From contig CAJAIK010000066.1 in the NCBI GenBank assembly GCA_903939765.1, positions 1 to 64,000 on the forward strand: a DNA stretch of 64,000 bases, written 5' to 3'. The notes beneath the pieces are model-generated. The model was not told the DNA's origin. It saw only the letters and a program-made list of their open reading frames with translations, and did not search any database. The position numbers were made by a program, and so were the translations under genes. Below, piece after piece: positions 37,150-47,946 of the stretch (the stretch's first letter is position 1; every line of letters starts with the position of its first letter). The stretch comes from an uncultured Chlorobiaceae bacterium. GTDB lineage: Bacteria; Bacteroidota; Chlorobiia; Chlorobiales; Chlorobiaceae.

Positions 37150-39816
37150 CTATTGAGAAAGTTTAACAATGGTATAGCCTGCCTCCTTCAGCAAGCGGGG
37201 AATATTTTGTGAAACCTGGGAGAGCTGTTTATCTTTTTCCTCTTTCGGCAGTTGTTCCCAGTCAACGAGCAGTGCGTGACGTTTTTTCTCTTTGTTGGTC
37301 TGAAGGGCAAATATCCACCCATCCTTGAGTTTGGCATCCATCCATCGTTCGTGTTCAAGTATCGCCATCTCTTTGAGTTCCGGTATCAGGAATTCAGCCG
37401 GTTGTTCATTGTTGCGCATAGGAACAATGGCATAGCCAAAGGCCGCAAGTTTATTGGGAATATCGCGGACGATGGCACGATTTTTTTCCTTTTTGTGGGC
37501 TGAGAGCTCCGAATAGGTTATCAGCGAACTGTGTTTTTTCGGCTCAGCATTGTCATCAGTAACATCTCCCCATACATATCCCTGGCTTTTAAGGTTGTTG
37601 TAAAACAGTTGGTGGTTAAGCTTGGCCAATTTTTCAAGCAACTCTTCATTGAGTTCCAGGTGATGAACCATCGCTATAAAGGAGTGAGGATCAACATGCA
37701 GTTCCAGTTGTTCTTCGGGAGGCAGGTAGGAACGGTTGAAATGCGTTGCTTTGCCAAGTCGGCTCATGGCGACAATTGCCTCCATTGAGCGGGAGCCATG
37801 TCGATAGTTCTCAACCCGGAGAAATGCGCGCATGATTCCTGTGTCGATACGGAGTATGTGATTTTTGTCGAATAACTGGGGAGTCAGCCGCTCGAACAGT
37901 GATCGAAGGAGAAGCGCCCGGCGGACAATGAAATAGGGGTCACTGCGACCTTCAGCAATTTGCGGATTCGGGCCAAGCACATTGAGAAAGCCCTTCAGTC
38001 GGCTCAGGAAGTCCGGAGCTTTGGCTTCAACAAGCTCTCTCTGCTTTTTTGATTTTGTAAAAGAGTCGAGACTCGAAGAGGTGCCACCTGCAAAAACAAA
38101 AATAGCTTTTCCGATTGGATGGGTGAGCTCCCCTTGCTGAAATTCACCATCCTGCATTGGCGCGAGAAAGAAGCGCAGCCATCCGAGTTTTTTGCCATCA
38201 AGCGATGAGTCGAACTCATCCCAGAATGCCAGCGGTATTTTCCCCGATAAGGCCACATCACGAATCTGATGAAAGGCATCAATCAAGTCAGCAGGGCTTT
38301 TGAACTGGGAGAGATTAAAGGTATGCGTTTTCTCCGCAATTTTTTTTTCAGGACTGGCTGCTTTGGCAATTTGTTTGACGGCAAACGATTTGCCTGAACC
38401 GGGAGGGCCAAAAACAGCAATTGAAATGGGACGATCTTCCTGCTGATTGCAATATTCTGAAATCAGGCTGTGAATACTTCTCAGAGACTCAATTTCCTGA
38501 CGATCCACCGTGACAAGTTCTCCGAATTCCCCGATTGGAATGTTTTTCAGAGCAGCTTTTGCTCCTTGAAGGACGATGCGGCGACTTAACTCTTCAAGGT
38601 CGCCATAATAACGATCTCTGAGGATTGTCCAGGATGATGGCTGCGATTGTTGTTCCGCGTCACGTGTCGGGCACTCGGCAACGGCAAGCGGCGAATGTTC
38701 ATCCTTCAACTGCGTAATGACACTTTCAATCGGAAAGCGCAGACGAGGTGAAGAGTCGGTACCGCCATCATACCCGATTTTGTGGAGATGACGCATTGCC
38801 AGTACGCCAGCCTGGATTCCTTTGATAAGGTCAGGCTTTTTATTGGCAATAATTATTTCGCGCACGATTCCTGTTACCAGTACCGATGTTTTGCCAATAA
38901 TCTCTCCTTTTCCTGAGGGCCACTCCCGTTCCATGTGGAGTGGATCAAAAAGGAGTTGGGGGCGCTCATGTTTTTTTACTCCTGGAAGAAGCAGTGCTCC
39001 GGTAGGACCGAATGAAACGACCGTATAGGCTGAATTGGTCAGGCTGTTAATCATGGGATTATGGGTCAGTTCCCAAATCAGCTCTTGCGCGGTTTTTTCC
39101 CACGAAATCTGTGCGCTGACCTGAATGGCTGACTCCCGCAAATCGTTAATGCTCAAAACAACAATAAGGCGATCAGAAAAGTTGGATAAAAGATGATCCC
39201 ATAAGGCACCTTCCGCAATTGGTTGCGACATCTTGACAATAACCCATGGCGCTTTCTGGTTACTGCCTGGGTGAGTAATCGCTTTTGGCCAGTGAGATGG
39301 TTGATCTCTGAAGCCAAGGTTACTGTCATCGATCACGATAATATCCGGATTTTCCGGGCCCGACAAAGCGTTGTCTACTCCAGATTGTTCCATGGTGATT
39401 TTGGAAGAGCGGTCAAGGCCGAGAAAGCGTTCAACCCGCCAGATAACGGTTTCGGGAGCATCCTTGTCGTGGTATGGAGCCCAGACAGAGTAGCAGTGGT
39501 AGTAGCCAGGGTCGTATGGATCAATCGTTTTTGCCAAGGTTGTGTTGGTCGTTGTAACTTCAACAGGAAAGGGCAGATCGCCCCTGAGTTGAGCGATCAT
39601 GGATGTAACCAGATCAGCAAGGAGAGCGGCGCTGCCATGCTGCCAGCTCATTCGGCACAGGAGAGCGGCACTGCCATGCTGCCAGCTCATTCGGCAACTG
39701 TCTCCACCAGTCCAGTCAGTTAACTCATTGTACTCGCTGGATATATGTGCGATGTTCCAGTCAATTGTCACGTCACCGGTAACAAACAGCGAGAGAGGAT
39801 CGTTCTTTATTTGCAT
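37150..39816 (-). CDS. Ribokinase-like/AAA+/double-RyR-domain protein
   Basis: An 888-residue protein with three parts (numbering from TTG 39867). Residues ~25-345 look like a degenerate PfkB/ribokinase fold (LFVTGDVTIDWNI, IIVIDDSNLGFRD, VVSFGPTGALLLPG). Residues ~470-690 are an AAA+ ATPase: Walker A GPPGSGKS (487-494), Walker B PLAFWDEFD (545-553), sensor-like FAGGTSSS (592-599). Residues ~755-815 and ~828-905 are two RyR (ryanodine receptor) domains (SQGYVWGDVTDDN and ILEHERWMDAKLKDGWIFAL). Prokaryotic RyR domains are thought to bind nucleotide-like ligands. ATG 39816 is preferred over TTG 39867. No clear partner gene. A conflict or signalling ATPase is my inference. Confidence 0.8.
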   Translation of the reverse strand: MQIKNDPLSLFVTGDVTIDWNIAHISSEYNELTDWTGGDSCRMSWQHGSAALLCRMSWQHGSAALLADLVTSMIAQLRGDLPFPVEVTTTNTTLAKTIDPYDPGYYHCYSVWAPYHDKDAPETVIWRVERFLGLDRSSKITMEQSGVDNALSGPENPDIIVIDDSNLGFRDQPSHWPKAITHPGSNQKAPWVIVKMSQPIAEGALWDHLLSNFSDRLIVVLSINDLRESAIQVSAQISWEKTAQELIWELTHNPMINSLTNSAYTVVSFGPTGALLLPGVKKHERPQLLFDPLHMEREWPSGKGEIIGKTSVLVTGIVREIIIANKKPDLIKGIQAGVLAMRHLHKIGYDGGTDSSPRLRFPIESVITQLKDEHSPLAVAECPTRDAEQQSQPSSWTILRDRYYGDLEELSRRIVLQGAKAALKNIPIGEFGELVTVDRQEIESLRSIHSLISEYCNQQEDRPISIAVFGPPGSGKSFAVKQIAKAASPEKKIAEKTHTFNLSQFKSPADLIDAFHQIRDVALSGKIPLAFWDEFDSSLDGKKLGWLRFFLAPMQDGEFQQGELTHPIGKAIFVFAGGTSSSLDSFTKSKKQRELVEAKAPDFLSRLKGFLNVLGPNPQIAEGRSDPYFIVRRALLLRSLFERLTPQLFDKNHILRIDTGIMRAFLRVENYRHGSRSMEAIVAMSRLGKATHFNRSYLPPEEQLELHVDPHSFIAMVHHLELNEELLEKLAKLNHQLFYNNLKSQGYVWGDVTDDNAEPKKHSSLITYSELSAHKKEKNRAIVRDIPNKLAAFGYAIVPMRNNEQPAEFLIPELKEMAILEHERWMDAKLKDGWIFALQTNKEKKRHALLVDWEQLPKEEKDKQLSQVSQNIPRLLKEAGYTIVKLSQ
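39621..39698 (-). repeat. 39-bp tandem duplication inside the RyR/AAA+ gene
   Basis: Two adjacent 39-base copies with one mismatch, encoding CRMSWQHGSAALL twice (residues 58-70 and 71-83). In frame, so the protein is lengthened by 13 residues. Recent, given near identity. Confidence 0.9.
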
Positions 39817-40304
39817 TGTCAGTGGAATGAGATTTTGAGAAAATTTACGGTAAACTGCGGACAGCAATCATTTAACTTTTTCTTAAATAATTGCTTTAAA
39901 TATGGTGCGGTGCCAACGCCAAAAAATCAAGATTAATATTTGTACGGCTCAAAAACATACATATCCTCCCTCATGTAAAGGGCAGGATACAAACACGGAC
40001 GATAGATGACCTGACAAAAAGATAGTAAATAATAGGCAATTAGTTGCGTTGTCCTCCTTTTATGCGTTTTGTTGCATCTCTCGTCAGTGCGTAGCTGTTG
40101 AATCGTTTCGGAGTGTTACAGGTGTAGTCTCGCATTGCGAGACGAGGCTGTTTGAGCCTTTTTTTTGTTTTTGCGTGTTAGTTGCGTACCTTGATGGGTG
40201 AACTTCTTGCGGGTATGGAAAATATCGCGCAGTAAGTTTGGCTCACTTTCGGGTTATAACAGCTAAACTTTAAATTCTTGATAACCTGGTTTAACAGGAT
40301 AACG
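39817..40304. other. Long intergenic region
   Basis: About 490 bases without a credible gene. The AT-rich left half must include the promoter of the RyR/AAA+ gene. The right half ends in two consecutive hairpins and a T-run at 40127-40166 on the plus strand, with no ORF upstream that they could serve. A short untranslated RNA is possible. Confidence 0.45.
40127..40166 (+). terminator. Double hairpin with T-run
   Basis: GTCTCGC-ATT-GCGAGAC (perfect 7-bp stem) is followed three bases later by GGCT-GTTTG-AGCC and eight T. A good rho-independent terminator. The transcript it ends is not a known gene. Confidence 0.7.
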
Positions 40305-40541
40305 ATGAAAAAGAAGATCTGGTTGGTATTGGGAGTTGCAGGTATGCTTCTCGGGGTTCCCCATCTCGATGCTCAGGCTGTAGTCAAGGTTAAGATCGGT
40401 GTCGGAGTTGGAAGGGCGCACCATCACCACAGCAGGTATGCTGAGTCCCGCCGATACCGCGAAGAGAGGCGGCGTCAGCGTGATATTGAGTATCGCAGAC
40501 ACCATCATCATCGTAACAGCGGTATAACTATAAAGTTGTAA
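40305..40541 (+). CDS. His/Arg-rich small secreted protein
   Basis: A 78-residue protein from ATG 40305 (ribosome site CAGGA, 5 bases). A signal peptide (MKKKIWLVLGVAGMLLGVPH, cleavage near AQA) is followed by a mature part with AHHHHSRY, an Arg/Glu-rich stretch, and RRHHHHRN. The two His clusters could bind Ni, Zn or Cu; the arginines could bind acidic surface polymers. No family recognised. The frame reaches back to 40278. Confidence 0.6.
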   Translation: MKKKIWLVLGVAGMLLGVPHLDAQAVVKVKIGVGVGRAHHHHSRYAESRRYREERRRQRDIEYRRHHHHRNSGITIKL

Positions 40542-40665
40542 ATGAGTTTTGTTCTGCAGTTGAGCGGTTTTCAGACTCTTGTGTCGTAAAGCTTGGACGT
40601 CGCGGTTGAAAATGTTGTGCATGGCTTGACTGTATGACCTTTACCAGGTGCTCTTTTCCAATCAA

Positions 40666-40697
40666 TGCGGAACGGCTTTTTTCAAGCCGTTCCGCAC
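40666..40697. terminator. Bidirectional terminator-like hairpin
   Basis: TGCGGAACGGCTT pairs with AAGCCGTTCCGCA with a TTTTTC loop (13-bp perfect stem). It lies between two converging secreted-protein genes. No long T-run. Confidence 0.6.
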
Positions 40698-40708
40698 GTG
40701 GAGGCTTG

Positions 40709-41056
40709 TTATGGCCGTGTCCAGACAGATCCTCCGAATCCACCGGTTTTATGGGTGGCAGTTGCTTTGTTCGGGGTATCCAGACGAAGGATCAAGTTCC
40801 CCGACTGCATTATTGAGCCTTTTGGAACATCTGCCCAGCGGAGATTGATCTGGTTTCCAATAACCTGGCCTACCGCAACATTCGACCAGGTAGGAGCGGT
40901 TGGAGAGAGCTCCCCAAACCAGTAGACATCTCTTCCAATCTGACGCAAGTAGTAGGTGCCACCATCATCACAGCTCCATCTACCGGTAAGATCGGCAAAT
41001 GCAATCGCAGGAAGTGAGAACATGACAAGAAAAAGCAGGGTTTTCAGTTGTTTCAT
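40709..41056 (-). CDS. Small secreted beta-rich protein
   Basis: A 115-residue protein with a signal peptide (MKQLKTLLFLVMFSLPAIAF, cleaved near AFA/DLT). The mature part starts LTGRWSCDDGGTYYLRQIGR and continues VYWFGELSPTAPTWSNVAVG. Lipocalin-like small secreted proteins share this GxW...C/DDGGTYY...VYWFGE pattern; I know no function. ATG 41056 is chosen (the frame opens at 41131). Confidence 0.7.
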   Translation of the reverse strand: MKQLKTLLFLVMFSLPAIAFADLTGRWSCDDGGTYYLRQIGRDVYWFGELSPTAPTWSNVAVGQVIGNQINLRWADVPKGSIMQSGNLILRLDTPNKATATHKTGGFGGSVWTRP

Positions 41057-41397
41057 GATTGCCTCCAGGGTTGGTGTTTGGAAAAAGGGGGAAACAACCC
41101 CCGAAAAGGTATCGCCTATCCTCCAATGCACTTGACTGTTATGGCTGCACGAACGGCAGCCTCAGTGCCGCTTACAGAACATTTGCGATGGCCGTGGAAA
41201 AATTTCGATGCGATGGCCCATTGCCAATGGAGCCGTAGCCGCAACGATAAGCGTTGTAATGATAGATGAAGTAAAAAAACAAATTCTCTGATTATAAAAA
41301 AAACAGAGAGACTACGCAATTCTTTTTTCTTTCACCTCGAATTTTCCGCTTAATCCTTTTTCTGCAGATATCCAGGCTACTCTTTGCGGATGTGGTT
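41057..41397. other. Intergenic region with a possible broken small gene
   Basis: On the minus strand, 41116-41319 is open and ends SGTEAAVRAAITVKCIGG, protein-like. The preceding frame instead gives a signal-like TTLIVAATAPLAMGHRIEIF. A single frameshift near 41195 would join them into a short secreted protein. Too weak to call a gene. Confidence 0.25.
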
Positions 41398-43086
41398 TCA
41401 AAACCGTTTTACCGCCTGGACAAAAATCATGGGGGAGTCGGTGGGGTTGCTCTCACCGGCGATTTTCCATGCGCATGTTGCCTGCAGGCTGTAGTTGCTG
41501 ACATTGAACCATTTCAAACCGATCCCTGCTCCCGTCATGTTGCGGGTGTTCGTCTCGCCCTCAGCGGAGGGATTGGCATGAAGAAGGGCATAACCATGGT
41601 CGATAAAAGTGCTGAGTTGCAGTGTGCCAGGGAGCTCTCCGAGAGAGCCAAGCAGGTAACGCAGCTCGGTTGTTGCGACAAGACCCTTGTCGGCGTATGA
41701 TTCGCCTCTTTGCCATGCACGTACCGCACTCGGTCCACCGAGGGAGAGTTGTTCCGAGCTGGTCAGGTTTTTACTGGTCCACTGGCCATAGGCTCCCGCA
41801 TAGAGAGAGAACCCGTGCGAGATGTTCTGGCTGCGCCCAAGAGCCATGGTAATTTTTGAATAACCACCGTTGGTGTGCAGCCCGGTTGGTGCCTGGTCCA
41901 TTGAAAGTGCTTCGGAATCGTTAATATCGAGGCGTCCTCTGACGAAACCAAGCGAAAGTGAGGTTGCACCACCGTCCAGAAAGTCGTCCCTTTGGACTGC
42001 GCTGAGGCCAGCCTGCCAGGAGAGGCTTTGACGGCTGTTTCTGAGTGGGATGCTCTCCATCCGGTCGTCAAGCATGTTGCCTTCGCTGGCTACGGTTGCA
42101 TTCACAATCAGGTTTCTCTGGCGTATGAGCGGCTGTGTAACGGCAAGAGTCAGGTTGTGACCATTGCCCTCAGCATGCAGTGATTCAAATAATCCTTCCA
42201 ACTGGTAGCTCACAAAGCTGTAGTTCACTCCTATTCTGGTTCCGGAGAGTGTTATTGGTATTGCATAGCCAGCCTGTATATTTCGCAGATCTCCGGTTGT
42301 CGAGCTCTGCATGCGCAGGGTGAACTGATCTCCGAGATGAAATGGAGAGTAGAGCTCCATGGTGGCGCCAGCGTGATTCTCTCCCGTTGCATGGTTGCCG
42401 AAGTTGTCGAGGTCGAGTGAAAAGCTGTAGGGTCGGCCTTCGATCACTTCAAGGGTCGCCTGTGTTGTGCCTGGTCTTGAACCCGGTTCAAGCAGAATAC
42501 GGGAAGAGATATTAGGGAGTTCATTGACTCTCATGACCATGGAGGTAAGGGCTCTCTCTTCAAGAGGTTGATCGCGGGGTACCTGGCTGGCATAACTTTC
42601 AAGAAGAGATTTTCGTATTCTTGTCTCATGCGGTATTGTCTCAAGTGCTATTTTTTCCAGTACACCTTCAACAACTTCAATGACGACAGGCTCGCCTTCT
42701 TTCACCGTTTGTGGGGGGAAAAAGAGTGAAGCGAGGAAATAGCCTTTTTTTCGGTAAGCGTTCGTGATTGCTGCGGTAGCCTCATTCAGTCCGGCAAAGG
42801 TCATCTCTTTGCCGATGCAGCCCGACATAAGCGCTGAAAGCTCGTTACCGGAAAAGAGTGTGTTGCCCACAAAGGTAAAGCCCGTCACCTTGATCACGGT
42901 GCTGCCTCCGGCCAGCTCTTTGTGTGTCAACGGACGTTGAAAAACTGGTACCTCTTTTTGCACTTCAAGGGACGGCGGCGCAGTACTCTCCTTGAGAAGG
43001 CGGCCAGCGTCAGGAATATCAGCAGCCAAAACGCTGCTTGCTCTGCAGACTGACGCAAAGAGGAGTATTTTCAATGATCTGCACAT
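41398..43086 (-). CDS. Two-partner secretion outer-membrane transporter (TpsB)
   Basis: A 562-residue Omp85-superfamily pore of the ShlB/FhaC/HecB type. Signal peptide (residues ~1-21), then a POTRA domain with FVGNTLFSGNELSALMSGCI and YFLASLFFPPQTVKEGEPVV, then a 16-strand beta-barrel (LDLDNFGNHATGENHAGATM and others) ending in a C-terminal Phe. It secretes its partner, the large TpsA encoded 75 bases upstream. ATG 43086 follows GGAG at 6 bases; the frame opens at 43134. Confidence 0.92.
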   Translation of the reverse strand: MCRSLKILLFASVCRASSVLAADIPDAGRLLKESTAPPSLEVQKEVPVFQRPLTHKELAGGSTVIKVTGFTFVGNTLFSGNELSALMSGCIGKEMTFAGLNEATAAITNAYRKKGYFLASLFFPPQTVKEGEPVVIEVVEGVLEKIALETIPHETRIRKSLLESYASQVPRDQPLEERALTSMVMRVNELPNISSRILLEPGSRPGTTQATLEVIEGRPYSFSLDLDNFGNHATGENHAGATMELYSPFHLGDQFTLRMQSSTTGDLRNIQAGYAIPITLSGTRIGVNYSFVSYQLEGLFESLHAEGNGHNLTLAVTQPLIRQRNLIVNATVASEGNMLDDRMESIPLRNSRQSLSWQAGLSAVQRDDFLDGGATSLSLGFVRGRLDINDSEALSMDQAPTGLHTNGGYSKITMALGRSQNISHGFSLYAGAYGQWTSKNLTSSEQLSLGGPSAVRAWQRGESYADKGLVATTELRYLLGSLGELPGTLQLSTFIDHGYALLHANPSAEGETNTRNMTGAGIGLKWFNVSNYSLQATCAWKIAGESNPTDSPMIFVQAVKRF

Positions 43087-43161
43087 GGTGAACTCCATAA
43101 AATTTATGTAGAGGTGAGAGTGGATCACTACCACAACTGGAACTTTTTTTTACAGAAGTCG

Positions 43162-46100
43162 TTATCCGATTTTTATCAGCACAACCGATCGAGCCTTGTC
43201 ACCAAACTGGTCTTTGGCGACAAGTTCTACCCGGTAGACACCTTTTGCCTCTTTTGGTGCTTTTCCGCTTATGACCTTTTGATTTTGGTCAAACGCCATC
43301 CAGGCGGGTATTGATGAACCATTGACCGACTCCACTTCAAGGGAGATAACCGCATCAGGATTGCTATGGCTGAACAGGGTGCCTGGGAGTGGGAAAATAA
43401 AGAAGGTATCAGCAGCTTCAGGCACCTCTATCGTGTTTACGGCAATAAACCCGCCTTTCGCTACCTTTTTTCCTGTAACACGAACTGATTTCTGCTGGAT
43501 AGTATTGCTTCTGCTGATAGTACTGATTGCCCGATGAAAACTGTTGAGAACGCTTTCAGCGGTCATCACCTTCCGGCAACTCTGTTGCGCATCAGCCAGC
43601 CAAGCCACTGCCGGATTGTTCAGGCTTGGAATACCGGTGAAAATAAAGCCGTCGCCGGATTCGCTCACGCTGGAAGGCGGGTAGTTACTGTAGCTTGCTC
43701 CGTAGCGACGAAAGTCGGCGGTCAGTTTTCCCTTGATGGTTGCGTCTGGATTGGCAGAATAGACTATCCACCGGGCGGTTCCAGCGGTTGAGAGCATTGC
43801 ATTGGCGCTGTTGGTGAAATTCTGGCCAGCCAGAACAATACTGCTGCCGCTGGAGGCGCTTGCAGAGAGGGTGCCTGACGCAAGAGTAATGCCGGAACCG
43901 GCTGTTGGGCCAAAGTTCACGGCACTGATGCTCTCAGCCGTGATGGTGCGCAAGGTGATTTCACCGCTCTCCCTGTTGCTGTTGCCCGATCCGTCGCGCA
44001 GTTCAATGGTGACGTTTCCTGAGCCAGAGTCGATGGATGTGCCAGGGGCCATGGTAATGGTCGCCTTTCCGGCCGAGCGGCTGGTGTCAACAATTCCGTT
44101 TTCCTGCCTCTCATTGGAAACCAGTGTCAGGTTGCCGTTGTCGGTTGCGATGCTGGCATTGATCAGAATACTCTTTCCGGCATTCAACTCAAGATTGCCG
44201 CCATTGCCAAGAGGGTTATTGGCAAGAATGGCTGAATTGATGGAAATATCGTTATTCGCCTTCAGGATAACCCGCTCACCCGCATTGAGCAGCGCAGTTA
44301 TCTGGCCAGGAGTGAAGCTGTAGTCCTTATCGGGATTAAAGGAGTACTCCTGCTGCACCGATTCACGATCGGTGATTGGCGTAAAAATATCGGCTTTTCC
44401 GGTTTTGTTTGACCAGTTAAAGGAGCTGACAACAAAACTCCCTGCCGTGCTGCCCGCGCTCAGCGGTGTAATGCCGCCAATGCCCAGTTGATCCTCTTTA
44501 TTGGTGCCCAGCCGGCTGTTTGAAGAGCTTATCTCCCCGACGGTGCTCTCCACTCCACTCAGCCAGGTTATTGCGCCAGCATTGGTGATTGAGCCTCTGT
44601 CCCAAAAGGGTGAGGAGACAACGAAGCGGCCATCAGGAAGGGCGGTCACTGCTCCCACATGATCGCCTGTTTTTGACCCTGCAAGACTGTTCTCTGCGCT
44701 TATCGCCCCGACAGTTCCGCCAAGGCCATCACCCCAGGTCACTGCACCGGCATTGGCTGTTGCTCCCTTGTCCCAGAATGTTGATGAAACAACATAATTG
44801 CCATTTTTCAATGCGGTTATTCTGTTTGTTCCTGAAGCATCCGATCCGGCATAGTCATTTTTGGTTGATCCCACCAGACTGTTCGCTGCGGTTATCACCC
44901 CGATGGTGCCGCCGATGCCATTCCCCCAGGTTACCGCTCCCGCATCGGTGGATGAACCATTGTCCCAAAACGGCGAGCCTACAACGTAATGACCATTTGT
45001 GAGTGGTGTTATGTTAAAGTGGGCACCATCATTTGTTGCAGGGCCGACCAGACTGTTGGCTGTGCTTATTGTTCCGACTGTACCTCCATTGCCATTCCCC
45101 CAGGTCACTGCTCCGACGTCGGCAACCAACCCGTTGTCCCACTTTGGTGAAGCGACCACAAAATGACCATTGGTCAGTGCTGTTACGGTTGAAGAAAGAG
45201 CATCGTTCGTTGTTGAACCGACCAGACTGTTGGCCGCACTGATTATCCCGGCAGTAACGCCGACTCCACTTCCCCAGGTCACTGCCCCAGCATCGGCAAC
45301 AGAACCATTGTCCCAGCCGGGGGAGTTAATCACAAAGTGGCCATTGGTCAGAGGCGTAACATGAGCTGATACCAAGTCACCGGTGGCAGGGCCAATCAGG
45401 CTGTTCGCAGCGCTTATTGTTCCCGTTATGCCGTTGACACCATTCCCCCATGTTACTGCACCAGCGTCAATGGTTTCACCGTTGTCCCAGCTTGCTGAAA
45501 CAATCAGGAAGTTTCCGTTGGTCAGGGCCGTTATCTCTCCTCCAACTTTGTCCTCTTTTTTGGAACCGACAAGGCTCTTCGAGGTATTGACTGTCCCGAT
45601 CGCGCCGGTGACTCCGTTCACCAGAGTTACCATACCGGCATTGGTGAGTGTGCCGTTGTCCCAGTTTGGCGCGTTTATGACATAGTTGCCGTTTGTAAGA
45701 GCTGTTACGTTGCCAACCTGATCACCTCTTTTGGTGCCGACCAGGCTGTTGGCAGCGCTGACTGCGCCAACGGTACCTCCATTTCCATTCCCCCAGGTCA
45801 CCGCACCGACATTGGTGACGTTTCCACTGTCCCACGATAAGGAGGAAACAACATAATTGCCATTAGCAAGAGCTGTTATGGTTCCGACCTGATCGTTATT
45901 GCTTGAACCGGTCAGGCTCTTTGTTGTGCCGATTACCCCTGCGGTACCTCCATTTCCGTTTCCCCAGGTTACGGCGCCAGCATCAATGGCGGTACCATTG
46001 TCCCAGCCTGGTGTGCTGACCACAAAGTTGTTGTTGGTGAGGGTAATGACACGGGATGATTCACCGTCATCGGTCGAAGAGCCCACCAGACTGTTATTTT

Positions 46101-47946
46101 CGGAGACAGTTCCGCTGACACCCGCAGTTCCGTCGATCCAGGTTACCGAACCTGCGTTGGCTTGGCCAGCATTCGACCATTTGCTTGTCACTGTCACGGC
46201 ACTGTTTCTGCTTTTCAGGGCGGTCACGGTTTCACCTACCTGATCATTTGCGGTAGAACCGCAGAGCATGGAGAGCAAGGTGCCATCCGGCCTGTAGAGT
46301 CTGACCGCTCCAGCATCGGTTGCCACAAAGTCGTCGAGGGGGCTGGCAACCAGAATATTGCCATTGCCCAGTTCGAGGATGGTGCCGGAGCCATGCTCGT
46401 CACCTGCCGCAGGACTCAGGTCAGGCAGCGAAATGAGGGAAAAGAGGGGGATCGTGGTATTGGCATCAATGGTGATGTTTCGCGGATCAAGCAGCAGAAA
46501 GCCGGTTTTACCATGGGGTGCGTTCGTCACGACCTGACCGGGGAAGGTGAGCTTTTCATGGCTCGATACCTCGACCTTTCCGCCGTCACCGCTTTTGTTG
46601 CCTCCTCTGGCCTCTATGGTTCCACCAAAGGCTGTGGAGAACTCCGACCAGAGCGCGACGGTACCGCCGTTGCCGCTCTCAACAGCGTTGGCTGTCAGCA
46701 AGCTGTTTTTTGTTACCGTGGTGGTCGACGCGTTGTTGAGAGAGCCATCCTTTCCCTGCCAGCCGCCACCGATGAAGATCTCTCCGCCGCCCTTCTGGCC
46801 ATCAGCCTCTATCCGGGTTCCTGCAAGAAAAGTTTGCGGTGCAGTGATGGTGATCTGGCCGCCCTCTCCGGATGTGCCGTTTGCACCGAGCGTTCCGGAG
46901 AGGTAAAGAGTTTTTCCTGCATTGATGTGGATATGGCCACCATCGGCTCCATTGGCCGCCATCCGGCTTGCCGCAGTCTGCTCAATAGTGCCTGATGCAT
47001 CTATTTGTATGGTGCCGCCTCTGCCATTGCCCTCCGCACTCCATCTGCCGGCATCGACAAGATTGTTTCCTCTGGCGTTGATGTCGGCAGCGGAGAATGA
47101 GCCGGTGTTGATGATCGTGCCGCCTTCGATGACAATGGTGCCGTCGCGTTCCGCCATGCGGGCCGCACGCACTTTGCCGGTGTTATTGACCACTGAGGCA
47201 AGCAGTTCCCCGGCTGCCGGGGCAGTGATTATTACGGTACCACCATCAGCCTCAATCACTCCATTGTTCGTTATCCGGGCGTTCCAGGAGCTTTTATCCA
47301 CCTTGAGCGCCACCAGTCCACCGGGATCAATATTGAGGGTGATCATTTCTCCGGCAGCCATTCCGGTTGTTCCTTTGGCAGTGACAAGTGTTCCGCTGTT
47401 TGTGAGGGCACTCTCTCCGAGCAGCGCGATAAATCCTCCGTTCACCTGCCCCTCGTTGACCACTGAAGCGGCAGTGCCATTCGTGGAGAAGTTGTATTGT
47501 TCAGAGAGAAAGTCGCTGTCGCTGATTGCTAAAGTCGAGGCCACCAGCCCACCAACGTTGACGCTGGCGCCGGGAGCAAAAAGAATGCCGCTCGAATTTA
47601 CCAGAAAGATTTGTCCGTTCGCCGTAAGTGTACCGAATATTTCAGAAGGATTGCTCCCTGTAACCCGGTTGAGCAAGATGGAACGGGTGTCGGGCTGGGC
47701 AATGTTGACCGCTTCACCACGGCCAATACCGAAGGAGTTCCAGTTGATAATGGCACTGTTGCTTTTCTGCTCGATAAGCATCGCTGTGGCCGCTGGCTTG
47801 CTGATTGTTGCACTCCCAGCAGCGACCACCCCCTCCGAGGGCAAGGCAAATGTGTTATATCCCGTCAGTAACGAGAGTGTCACAACAGCAGTTAAAATCC
47901 AGCTATTCCTGACATTGTTCCCCGTACCGTGACAAAGGGCGTCCAT
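43162..47946 (-). CDS. Two-partner secreted exoprotein (TpsA) with propeller-like repeats
   Basis: A 1594-residue secreted protein. A long signal peptide (~1-33) precedes a filamentous-hemagglutinin N-terminal secretion domain (~35-160, IINWNSFGIGRGEAVNIAQP, LNRVTGSNPSEIFGTL). A beta-helix follows to ~500. Residues ~510-1170 hold about a dozen repeats of ~53 residues with core ALTNGxxVVxSPxWDNG, DAGAVTWGNGxGGTxGxIS and NSLVGS. A further beta-helix segment and a C-terminal Ig-like domain (~1490-1594) follow. The repeats look like small beta-sandwich or propeller blades. The start at 47946 follows GGAG at 9 bases. It acts as adhesin or cell-cell factor, by family. TpsB is downstream. Confidence 0.88.
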   Translation of the reverse strand: MDALCHGTGNNVRNSWILTAVVTLSLLTGYNTFALPSEGVVAAGSATISKPAATAMLIEQKSNSAIINWNSFGIGRGEAVNIAQPDTRSILLNRVTGSNPSEIFGTLTANGQIFLVNSSGILFAPGASVNVGGLVASTLAISDSDFLSEQYNFSTNGTAASVVNEGQVNGGFIALLGESALTNSGTLVTAKGTTGMAAGEMITLNIDPGGLVALKVDKSSWNARITNNGVIEADGGTVIITAPAAGELLASVVNNTGKVRAARMAERDGTIVIEGGTIINTGSFSAADINARGNNLVDAGRWSAEGNGRGGTIQIDASGTIEQTAASRMAANGADGGHIHINAGKTLYLSGTLGANGTSGEGGQITITAPQTFLAGTRIEADGQKGGGEIFIGGGWQGKDGSLNNASTTTVTKNSLLTANAVESGNGGTVALWSEFSTAFGGTIEARGGNKSGDGGKVEVSSHEKLTFPGQVVTNAPHGKTGFLLLDPRNITIDANTTIPLFSLISLPDLSPAAGDEHGSGTILELGNGNILVASPLDDFVATDAGAVRLYRPDGTLLSMLCGSTANDQVGETVTALKSRNSAVTVTSKWSNAGQANAGSVTWIDGTAGVSGTVSENNSLVGSSTDDGESSRVITLTNNNFVVSTPGWDNGTAIDAGAVTWGNGNGGTAGVIGTTKSLTGSSNNDQVGTITALANGNYVVSSLSWDSGNVTNVGAVTWGNGNGGTVGAVSAANSLVGTKRGDQVGNVTALTNGNYVINAPNWDNGTLTNAGMVTLVNGVTGAIGTVNTSKSLVGSKKEDKVGGEITALTNGNFLIVSASWDNGETIDAGAVTWGNGVNGITGTISAANSLIGPATGDLVSAHVTPLTNGHFVINSPGWDNGSVADAGAVTWGSGVGVTAGIISAANSLVGSTTNDALSSTVTALTNGHFVVASPKWDNGLVADVGAVTWGNGNGGTVGTISTANSLVGPATNDGAHFNITPLTNGHYVVGSPFWDNGSSTDAGAVTWGNGIGGTIGVITAANSLVGSTKNDYAGSDASGTNRITALKNGNYVVSSTFWDKGATANAGAVTWGDGLGGTVGAISAENSLAGSKTGDHVGAVTALPDGRFVVSSPFWDRGSITNAGAITWLSGVESTVGEISSSNSRLGTNKEDQLGIGGITPLSAGSTAGSFVVSSFNWSNKTGKADIFTPITDRESVQQEYSFNPDKDYSFTPGQITALLNAGERVILKANNDISINSAILANNPLGNGGNLELNAGKSILINASIATDNGNLTLVSNERQENGIVDTSRSAGKATITMAPGTSIDSGSGNVTIELRDGSGNSNRESGEITLRTITAESISAVNFGPTAGSGITLASGTLSASASSGSSIVLAGQNFTNSANAMLSTAGTARWIVYSANPDATIKGKLTADFRRYGASYSNYPPSSVSESGDGFIFTGIPSLNNPAVAWLADAQQSCRKVMTAESVLNSFHRAISTISRSNTIQQKSVRVTGKKVAKGGFIAVNTIEVPEAADTFFIFPLPGTLFSHSNPDAVISLEVESVNGSSIPAWMAFDQNQKVISGKAPKEAKGVYRVELVAKDQFGDKARSVVLIKIG

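Follow-up and report, generated by a model that had tools for sequence, protein, structure and literature searches.

The 64,000-nucleotide stretch of Chlorobiaceae DNA analysed here (the window) carries a mobile single gene whose 888-amino-acid product joins a sugar-kinase-like domain that is probably dead, a predicted ATP-driven switch and two RyR domains. We propose that this product acts as a cytosolic sensor-switch of a conflict system, probably an anti-phage one, that reads an ADP-ribose-derived signal; we regard this reading as roughly an even call. The extent of the gene and its domain order, as given in the original prediction, were confirmed by open reading frame analysis and by Pfam, which finds RyR twice, as well as AAA. 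Translation starts at the ATG at 39816, and an alternative TTG start would add 17 codons. The source genome (G000) is 2.98 Mb in size and its close relatives are all Chlorobiaceae, i.e., Chlorobium-type green sulfur bacteria; homologues of the same length within the genus are 77–96% identical to the 888-residue protein. The features of the gene are as follows (window positions; supporting evidence in brackets).

37150..39816, minus strand: whole gene, coding for the 888-residue ribokinase-like, AAA+ and tandem RyR protein (open reading frame, Pfam RyR and AAA matches, same-length homologues)
38527..39816, minus strand: N-terminal domain, residues 1–430, probable ribokinase-like pseudokinase (profile–profile score, Foldseek)
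39757..39786, minus strand: FVTGDVTIDW-type motif with D15 and D19, the substrate-side motif of ribokinase-fold kinases (invariance)
39620..39696, minus strand: 39-bp in-frame tandem duplication, CRMSWQHGSAALL twice, in the G-S-A-A-L-L loop (Tandem Repeats Finder)
38881..38907, minus strand: position of the GAGD catalytic motif, residues 304–312, GEIIGKTSV, with the Asp missing (all homologues have Ser or Thr here)
37702..38499, minus strand: AAA+ ATPase domain, approximately residues 440–705 (Pfam AAA at 468–539; lowest dN/dS of the three parts)
38386..38409, minus strand: Walker A, GPPGSGKS, residues 470–477 (K476 invariant)
38209..38232, minus strand: Walker B, LAFWDEFD, residues 529–536 (D533 and E534 invariant)
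37426..37647, minus strand: RyR repeat 1, degenerate, with H735, F738, H762 and N779 (above PF02026 cut-off; residues)
37165..37371, minus strand: RyR repeat 2, with H822, W825 and H847, and Q864 at the catalytic Asp position (above PF02026 cut-off; residues)

The two RyR domains are recognised with confidence (PF02026, 67.2 bits against a cut-off of 27.4, E = 1.6e-18), the best stretch being residues 816–884. In a profile search of the window's own genome both repeats scored above the curated cut-off, so that the predicted tandem pair behind the ATPase is real, and the solved Bacteroides RyR structures 6uag and 3nrt were matched at ~1e-6. Throughout the 86 genomes of the family, every RyR match falls in the RyR-AAA gene or in its fragments. 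The Pfam match to AAA is borderline (21.3 bits against a cut-off of 21.2). Walker A and Walker B are nevertheless complete, as had been claimed, the latter with its catalytic Glu. Neither their key residues nor R606 and R676 vary in any homologue that covers these positions. A full-length structure model of low confidence retrieved mainly AAA+ proteins, none significantly. Structure models were poor because the permitted alignment was shallow.

The N-terminal domain had been said to resemble PfkB kinases while lacking a catalytic GAGD-type motif. It gave no Pfam match at E ≤ 1, no Pfam or NCBIfam family model recognised it as a kinase, and it had no direct sequence match to solved structures. 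A profile built from 13 homologues was compared with those of PfkB (score 30.1) and of the RfaE/HldE type (27.6). The maxima of 150 column-shuffled controls were 24.1 (PfkB) and 25.6 (RfaE), and 14 unrelated families used as controls scored 12–21. When the alignment setting was relaxed, the profile matched the RfaE-type set collinearly over 317 columns, placing GDVTID on GDVMID, GSAALLA on GGAANVA and VIDDSNLG on VLEDYNKG, and VVSFGPTGA on the VVT..KGM strand pair. Thus, the protein shares with PfkB/RfaE kinases, in the same order, the GDV..D motif, the GSAA/GGAA loop, VxDDxNxG and the VSFGPTGA strand pair, but its similarity lies below detection by family models and it is devoid of the catalytic GAGD Asp. 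A weak AlphaFold model of this domain (pLDDT 46.6) retrieved mostly pyridoxal-kinase and PfkB-type structures with Foldseek, none of them significant (best E = 0.026), and no other fold fitted. The fit to the kinase fold is weak but specific.

On the substrate side, D15 and D19 are invariant in all homologues, including those of Methylobacterium and Streptomyces; G61 is likewise unchanged as far as these two, and the three residues stay the same down to ~30% identity. All homologues, in contrast, carry Ser or Thr where the GAGD Asp would stand, and this position is not filled by another acidic residue. Since the Asp is absent throughout, the N-terminus is probably a ribokinase-like pseudokinase, as alignment and modelling suggest, although the fold itself is not secured. 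The 39-bp duplication in its loop (two copies, 97% match) is found only in the window's subclade.

What the RyR domains may bind is suggested by recent work on phage proteins (PMC13232231, a 2026 preprint), in which RyR domains bind or cleave 2′/3′cADPR. RyDEP acts as a glycosidase and its homologues as sponges: six of eight phage RyR homologues tested bind cADPR signals and none of the eight cleaves them (PMC13232231). In RyDEP, H75 and D117 contact the ribose and are involved in catalysis, W78 contacts the adenine and H100 the phosphates (PMC13232231). H75, W78 and H100 map with identical spacing to H822, W825 and H847 of the second RyR repeat, and these three residues are invariant across the family. 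The position of catalytic D117 is occupied by Gln (Q864) in the window protein and by Arg or Tyr in its nearest relatives; Asp is found there in two lineages (L007 and L015), in the cassette-linked copies described below and in Methylobacterium. The first repeat keeps both His residues, except for the second in Methylobacterium, and has Phe, Tyr or Leu at the Trp position and Asn at the Asp position. As judged by these residues, the window copy, which retains the ligand contacts of a RyDEP-type glycosidase and is without its catalytic acid, looks like a putative binder that has lost that acid, and some of its relatives may be enzymes. The earlier idea that RyR domains read a nucleotide-derived ligand is now backed directly by the phage biochemistry (PMC13232231), and the contact residues are conserved here.

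The likeness to RyDEP lies in the PF02026 domain and its equally spaced His-x-x-Trp ... His set. RyDEP is a small, phage-encoded, stand-alone homodimer, whereas the window protein is host-encoded, has tandem RyR repeats fused to AAA+ and a pseudokinase, and is without the catalytic Asp. Four proteins from other genera of the phylum (L039, L040, L041 and L043) are also bacterial and also end in RyR; in them, however, an NAD-binding TrkA_N domain replaces the ribokinase-like and AAA+ parts, and there is one RyR rather than two.

By its RyR domain, the gene was found in 20 of 86 family genomes, with a patchy distribution in the genus (Chlorobium type), and it occupies at least six unrelated insertion sites:

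window's site: between the two-partner-secretion tpsB gene and a PTPS/QueD-like gene
other site: between LptE and a nucleotidyltransferase
other site: beside a P-type ATPase
other site: beside a type I restriction gene
other site: between OGG glycosylase and SecA
other site: near FtsX

Chlorobium ferrooxidans DSM 13031 (L015) is among the carriers of the solo gene. Most sites of the solo gene lie among housekeeping genes and not in defence islands. The original prediction would have failed if homologues sat in plain metabolic operons; the neighbourhood survey revealed no one such operon, the sites being many and unrelated and their housekeeping neighbours variable. In one relative (G304) the window's site is empty: tpsB is followed directly by the QueD-like gene, and the window has ~4.3 kb more. 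Two others (L128 in G044 and L127 in G291) hold internally deleted remnants of the gene at this site, and in the L127 remnant the first ~31 residues are fused in frame to the last ~40. At one site shared by two species (L004 versus L018/L019), the gene is ~96–99% identical while flanking genes are ~74–85% identical. The tract of high identity, which begins 57 bp ahead of the start codon and covers most of the gene, is a sharply bounded, recent lateral exchange of one gene. Within the clade dN/dS is ~0.09–0.13 and is lowest in the AAA+ part, which corresponds to purifying selection. It follows from the many sites, the exchange and the purifying selection that the solo gene is laterally mobile and kept functional; taken together with the patchiness, the empty site and the deleted remnants, they fit an accessory gene of defence type.

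Transposition by terminal repeats was rejected, since no inverted repeats flank the gene. In two loci (L009 and L010) a short start fragment of the P-type ATPase gene from another site travels with the gene; given this remnant and the missing inverted repeats, movement looks recombinational. In five loci representing one site (L007, L008, L013, L020 and L021) a cation P-type ATPase gene directly follows the RyR-AAA gene. A functional link to this ATPase was rejected because the pairing is specific to that site.

Beyond the Chlorobiaceae, the search yielded just two homologues of nearly full length, in Methylobacterium and Streptomyces, both on plasmid records, and the Streptomyces one lacks RyR entirely. 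On the Methylobacterium plasmid (NZ_CP107533.1), a gene for a 2082-aa SIR2-domain protein (L022, 4308–10556) lies near the homologue, with transposase genes between the two. No viral homologues of the full-length protein were found. Among family models of defence (PADLOC-DB, NCBIfam), the window protein gave nothing beyond a 26-residue P-loop match to mad8 of PADLOC-DB, far from the match over most of the protein that we required, and the homologues gave no PADLOC-DB matches.

As the original prediction stated, no effector gene is next door to the window copy, which stands alone in the window. Small upstream ORFs at 40263–41131 were considered as partners and rejected, since they occur at one site only and have no family match. 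The gene adjoins that of a ShlB-type transporter (41398–43134) of a two-partner-secretion protein; the latter, a 1594-aa protein with ~10 DUF5650 repeats, is encoded nearby at 43162–47946.

The situation is different in a diverged clade (~60% identical). At both visible loci (n = 2; L121 in genome G213 and L122 in genome G248), which are at different chromosomal sites, an effector gene lies downstream in the same orientation, at distances of 41 and 47 bp. Its product of ~570 residues contains SLOG-type motifs at the N-terminus (RIGVTGHRNL, ISPLAKGADR and IWDG...GGTAEIV; recognised as motifs, with no Pfam SLOG match), while the C-terminal half, with its ~4 hydrophobic segments, is matched weakly by DUF4231/SLATT_3 and SLATT_1. 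We predict from these features a membrane effector consisting of a SLOG-like domain and two SLATT-type 2TM domains. Hence only the copies of the window's clade can be called self-contained, as originally suggested; those of the diverged clade belong to a two-gene cassette.

The same effector family is present in five more loci of the genus (L202, L203, L204, L205 and L206, from G173, G193, G044 and G197), where its neighbours are TIR_2-DUF4062 and nSTAND1 genes, or TIR-Sel1 and a TrkA_N channel-like gene. The latter adjoins the effector gene in L202. One effector copy among these loci has three internal stops. SLATT is a predicted nucleotide-responsive, pore-forming effector (PMC7159879), and DUF4062 is a TIR-like NADase in anti-phage defence (PMC13174449). 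To judge from its gene neighbours, the family seems to be a modular conflict effector whose sensors can be exchanged. Since this family stands beside TIR/DUF4062 genes elsewhere, the RyR-AAA gene occupies the place that NAD-consuming sensors have in those loci. The diverged relatives therefore resemble SLOG/SLATT conflict systems (PMC7159879) and TIR-nSTAND loci in adjoining the same effector family, and differ from them in that the RyR-AAA protein replaces the TIR/nSTAND genes; the window copy differs further in having no effector. With Thoeris (ThsA/ThsB) there would be a common signal class, presumably cADPR isomers, and, in relatives only, a SLOG-type domain; however, there is no TIR, SIR2 or Macro effector here and no Thoeris gene beside the window gene.

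The effector family was not found in the window's genome. A SLOG-SLATT partner acting in trans was rejected as a general rule, because the family occurs in few genomes and is absent from the window's. DUF4231 showed no clear pattern of co-occurrence with the gene across the genus; a single stand-alone DUF4231 gene (153 aa) lies on a different contig of the window's genome.

In the mechanism that we propose, the C-terminal tandem RyR would bind an alarm nucleotide (2′cADPR, 3′cADPR or ADPR) such as TIR or DUF4062 NADases produce. The N-terminal ribokinase-like domain would offer a pocket without catalytic activity, which may accept a second ligand (a nucleoside or sugar) or serve in assembly, and the AAA+ core would translate ligand binding into ATP-dependent assembly. 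The neighbouring SLOG-like, double-SLATT effector would be the output of the cassette form and would permeabilise the membrane; the window copy would be a solo form, with output in trans or through the AAA+ machine itself. We counted in favour of a sensor the RyR and AAA domains themselves, the match of ligand residues, the cassette at both loci and the effector family beside TIR, DUF4062 and nSTAND genes. Against it, we counted the lack of the effector and its family in the window's genome, the number of cassettes (n = 2), the lack of a defence-model match, the mostly housekeeping surroundings of solo sites and the Streptomyces homologue without RyR, as well as the facts that the cADPR evidence is a preprint on phage proteins and that the first repeat has Phe for Trp and Asn for Asp.

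The main rival explanation is an off-switch or signal buffer, i.e., a host-encoded RyDEP-like protein that keeps the host's TIR systems from firing. More specifically, copies with Asp would hydrolyse cADPR-type signals, the window copy with Gln would sequester them, and the cassette form would restrain its own effector. RyDEP is itself a glycosidase with sponge homologues (PMC13232231), copies of the L007/L015 type, those linked to a cassette and that of Methylobacterium retain the catalytic Asp, and a solo form of a buffer needs no effector. However, it is not obvious what the AAA+ domain, the most constrained part of the protein, would do in a simple buffer, and no TIR-linked effector locus was found in the window's genome. 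We consider the buffer unlikely.

One can also imagine a metabolic or stress regulator unrelated to conflict, in which pseudokinase and RyR sense a housekeeping nucleotide or NAD metabolite and AAA+ remodels a client protein. The housekeeping genes around most sites, strong purifying selection and the joining of RyR to TrkA_N in other members of the phylum would suit such a role. The patchy, mobile distribution, with repeated loss, many sites and recent lateral exchange, makes it less likely, and the cassette with a SLATT-type effector also speaks against it, so that we hold this explanation to be improbable. Finally, the N-terminus could be an active kinase whose phosphorylated nucleoside or sugar is read by the RyR of the same protein. 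The invariance of D15, D19 and G61 would be expected of such an enzyme, but with Ser or Thr for the GAGD Asp in every homologue, no acidic substitute in that column and no family model recognising a kinase, it seems very improbable.

Extending the sensor-switch reading beyond this gene, one may speculate about a class of immune receptors in which tandem RyR senses TIR-made cyclic ADP-ribose via an AAA+ switch and drives SLOG-SLATT membrane effectors; we put this forward tentatively and with more doubt than confidence. If true, the tandem RyR module, a homologue of the R12 domain in animal calcium-release channels, would be a bacterial immune sensor and a host counterpart of phage RyR sponges, and would connect cADPR, RyR domains and membrane permeability in prokaryotes. 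That phage RyR proteins bind or cleave cADPR immune signals has been shown only recently, and a host-encoded, mobile RyR-AAA+ protein with a predicted pore-forming effector in relatives would be their counterpart on the receiving side. A soluble bacterial protein would then allow a test of the long-standing question whether cADPR is sensed by RyR domains.

Phages commonly encode small RyR-domain proteins (L186, L187, L188, L189 and other records). At a loose cut-off, 296 phage records match the RyR protein of Arthrobacter phage Uzumaki, whose gene lies one gene away from that of a PnuC-like nicotinamide riboside transporter.
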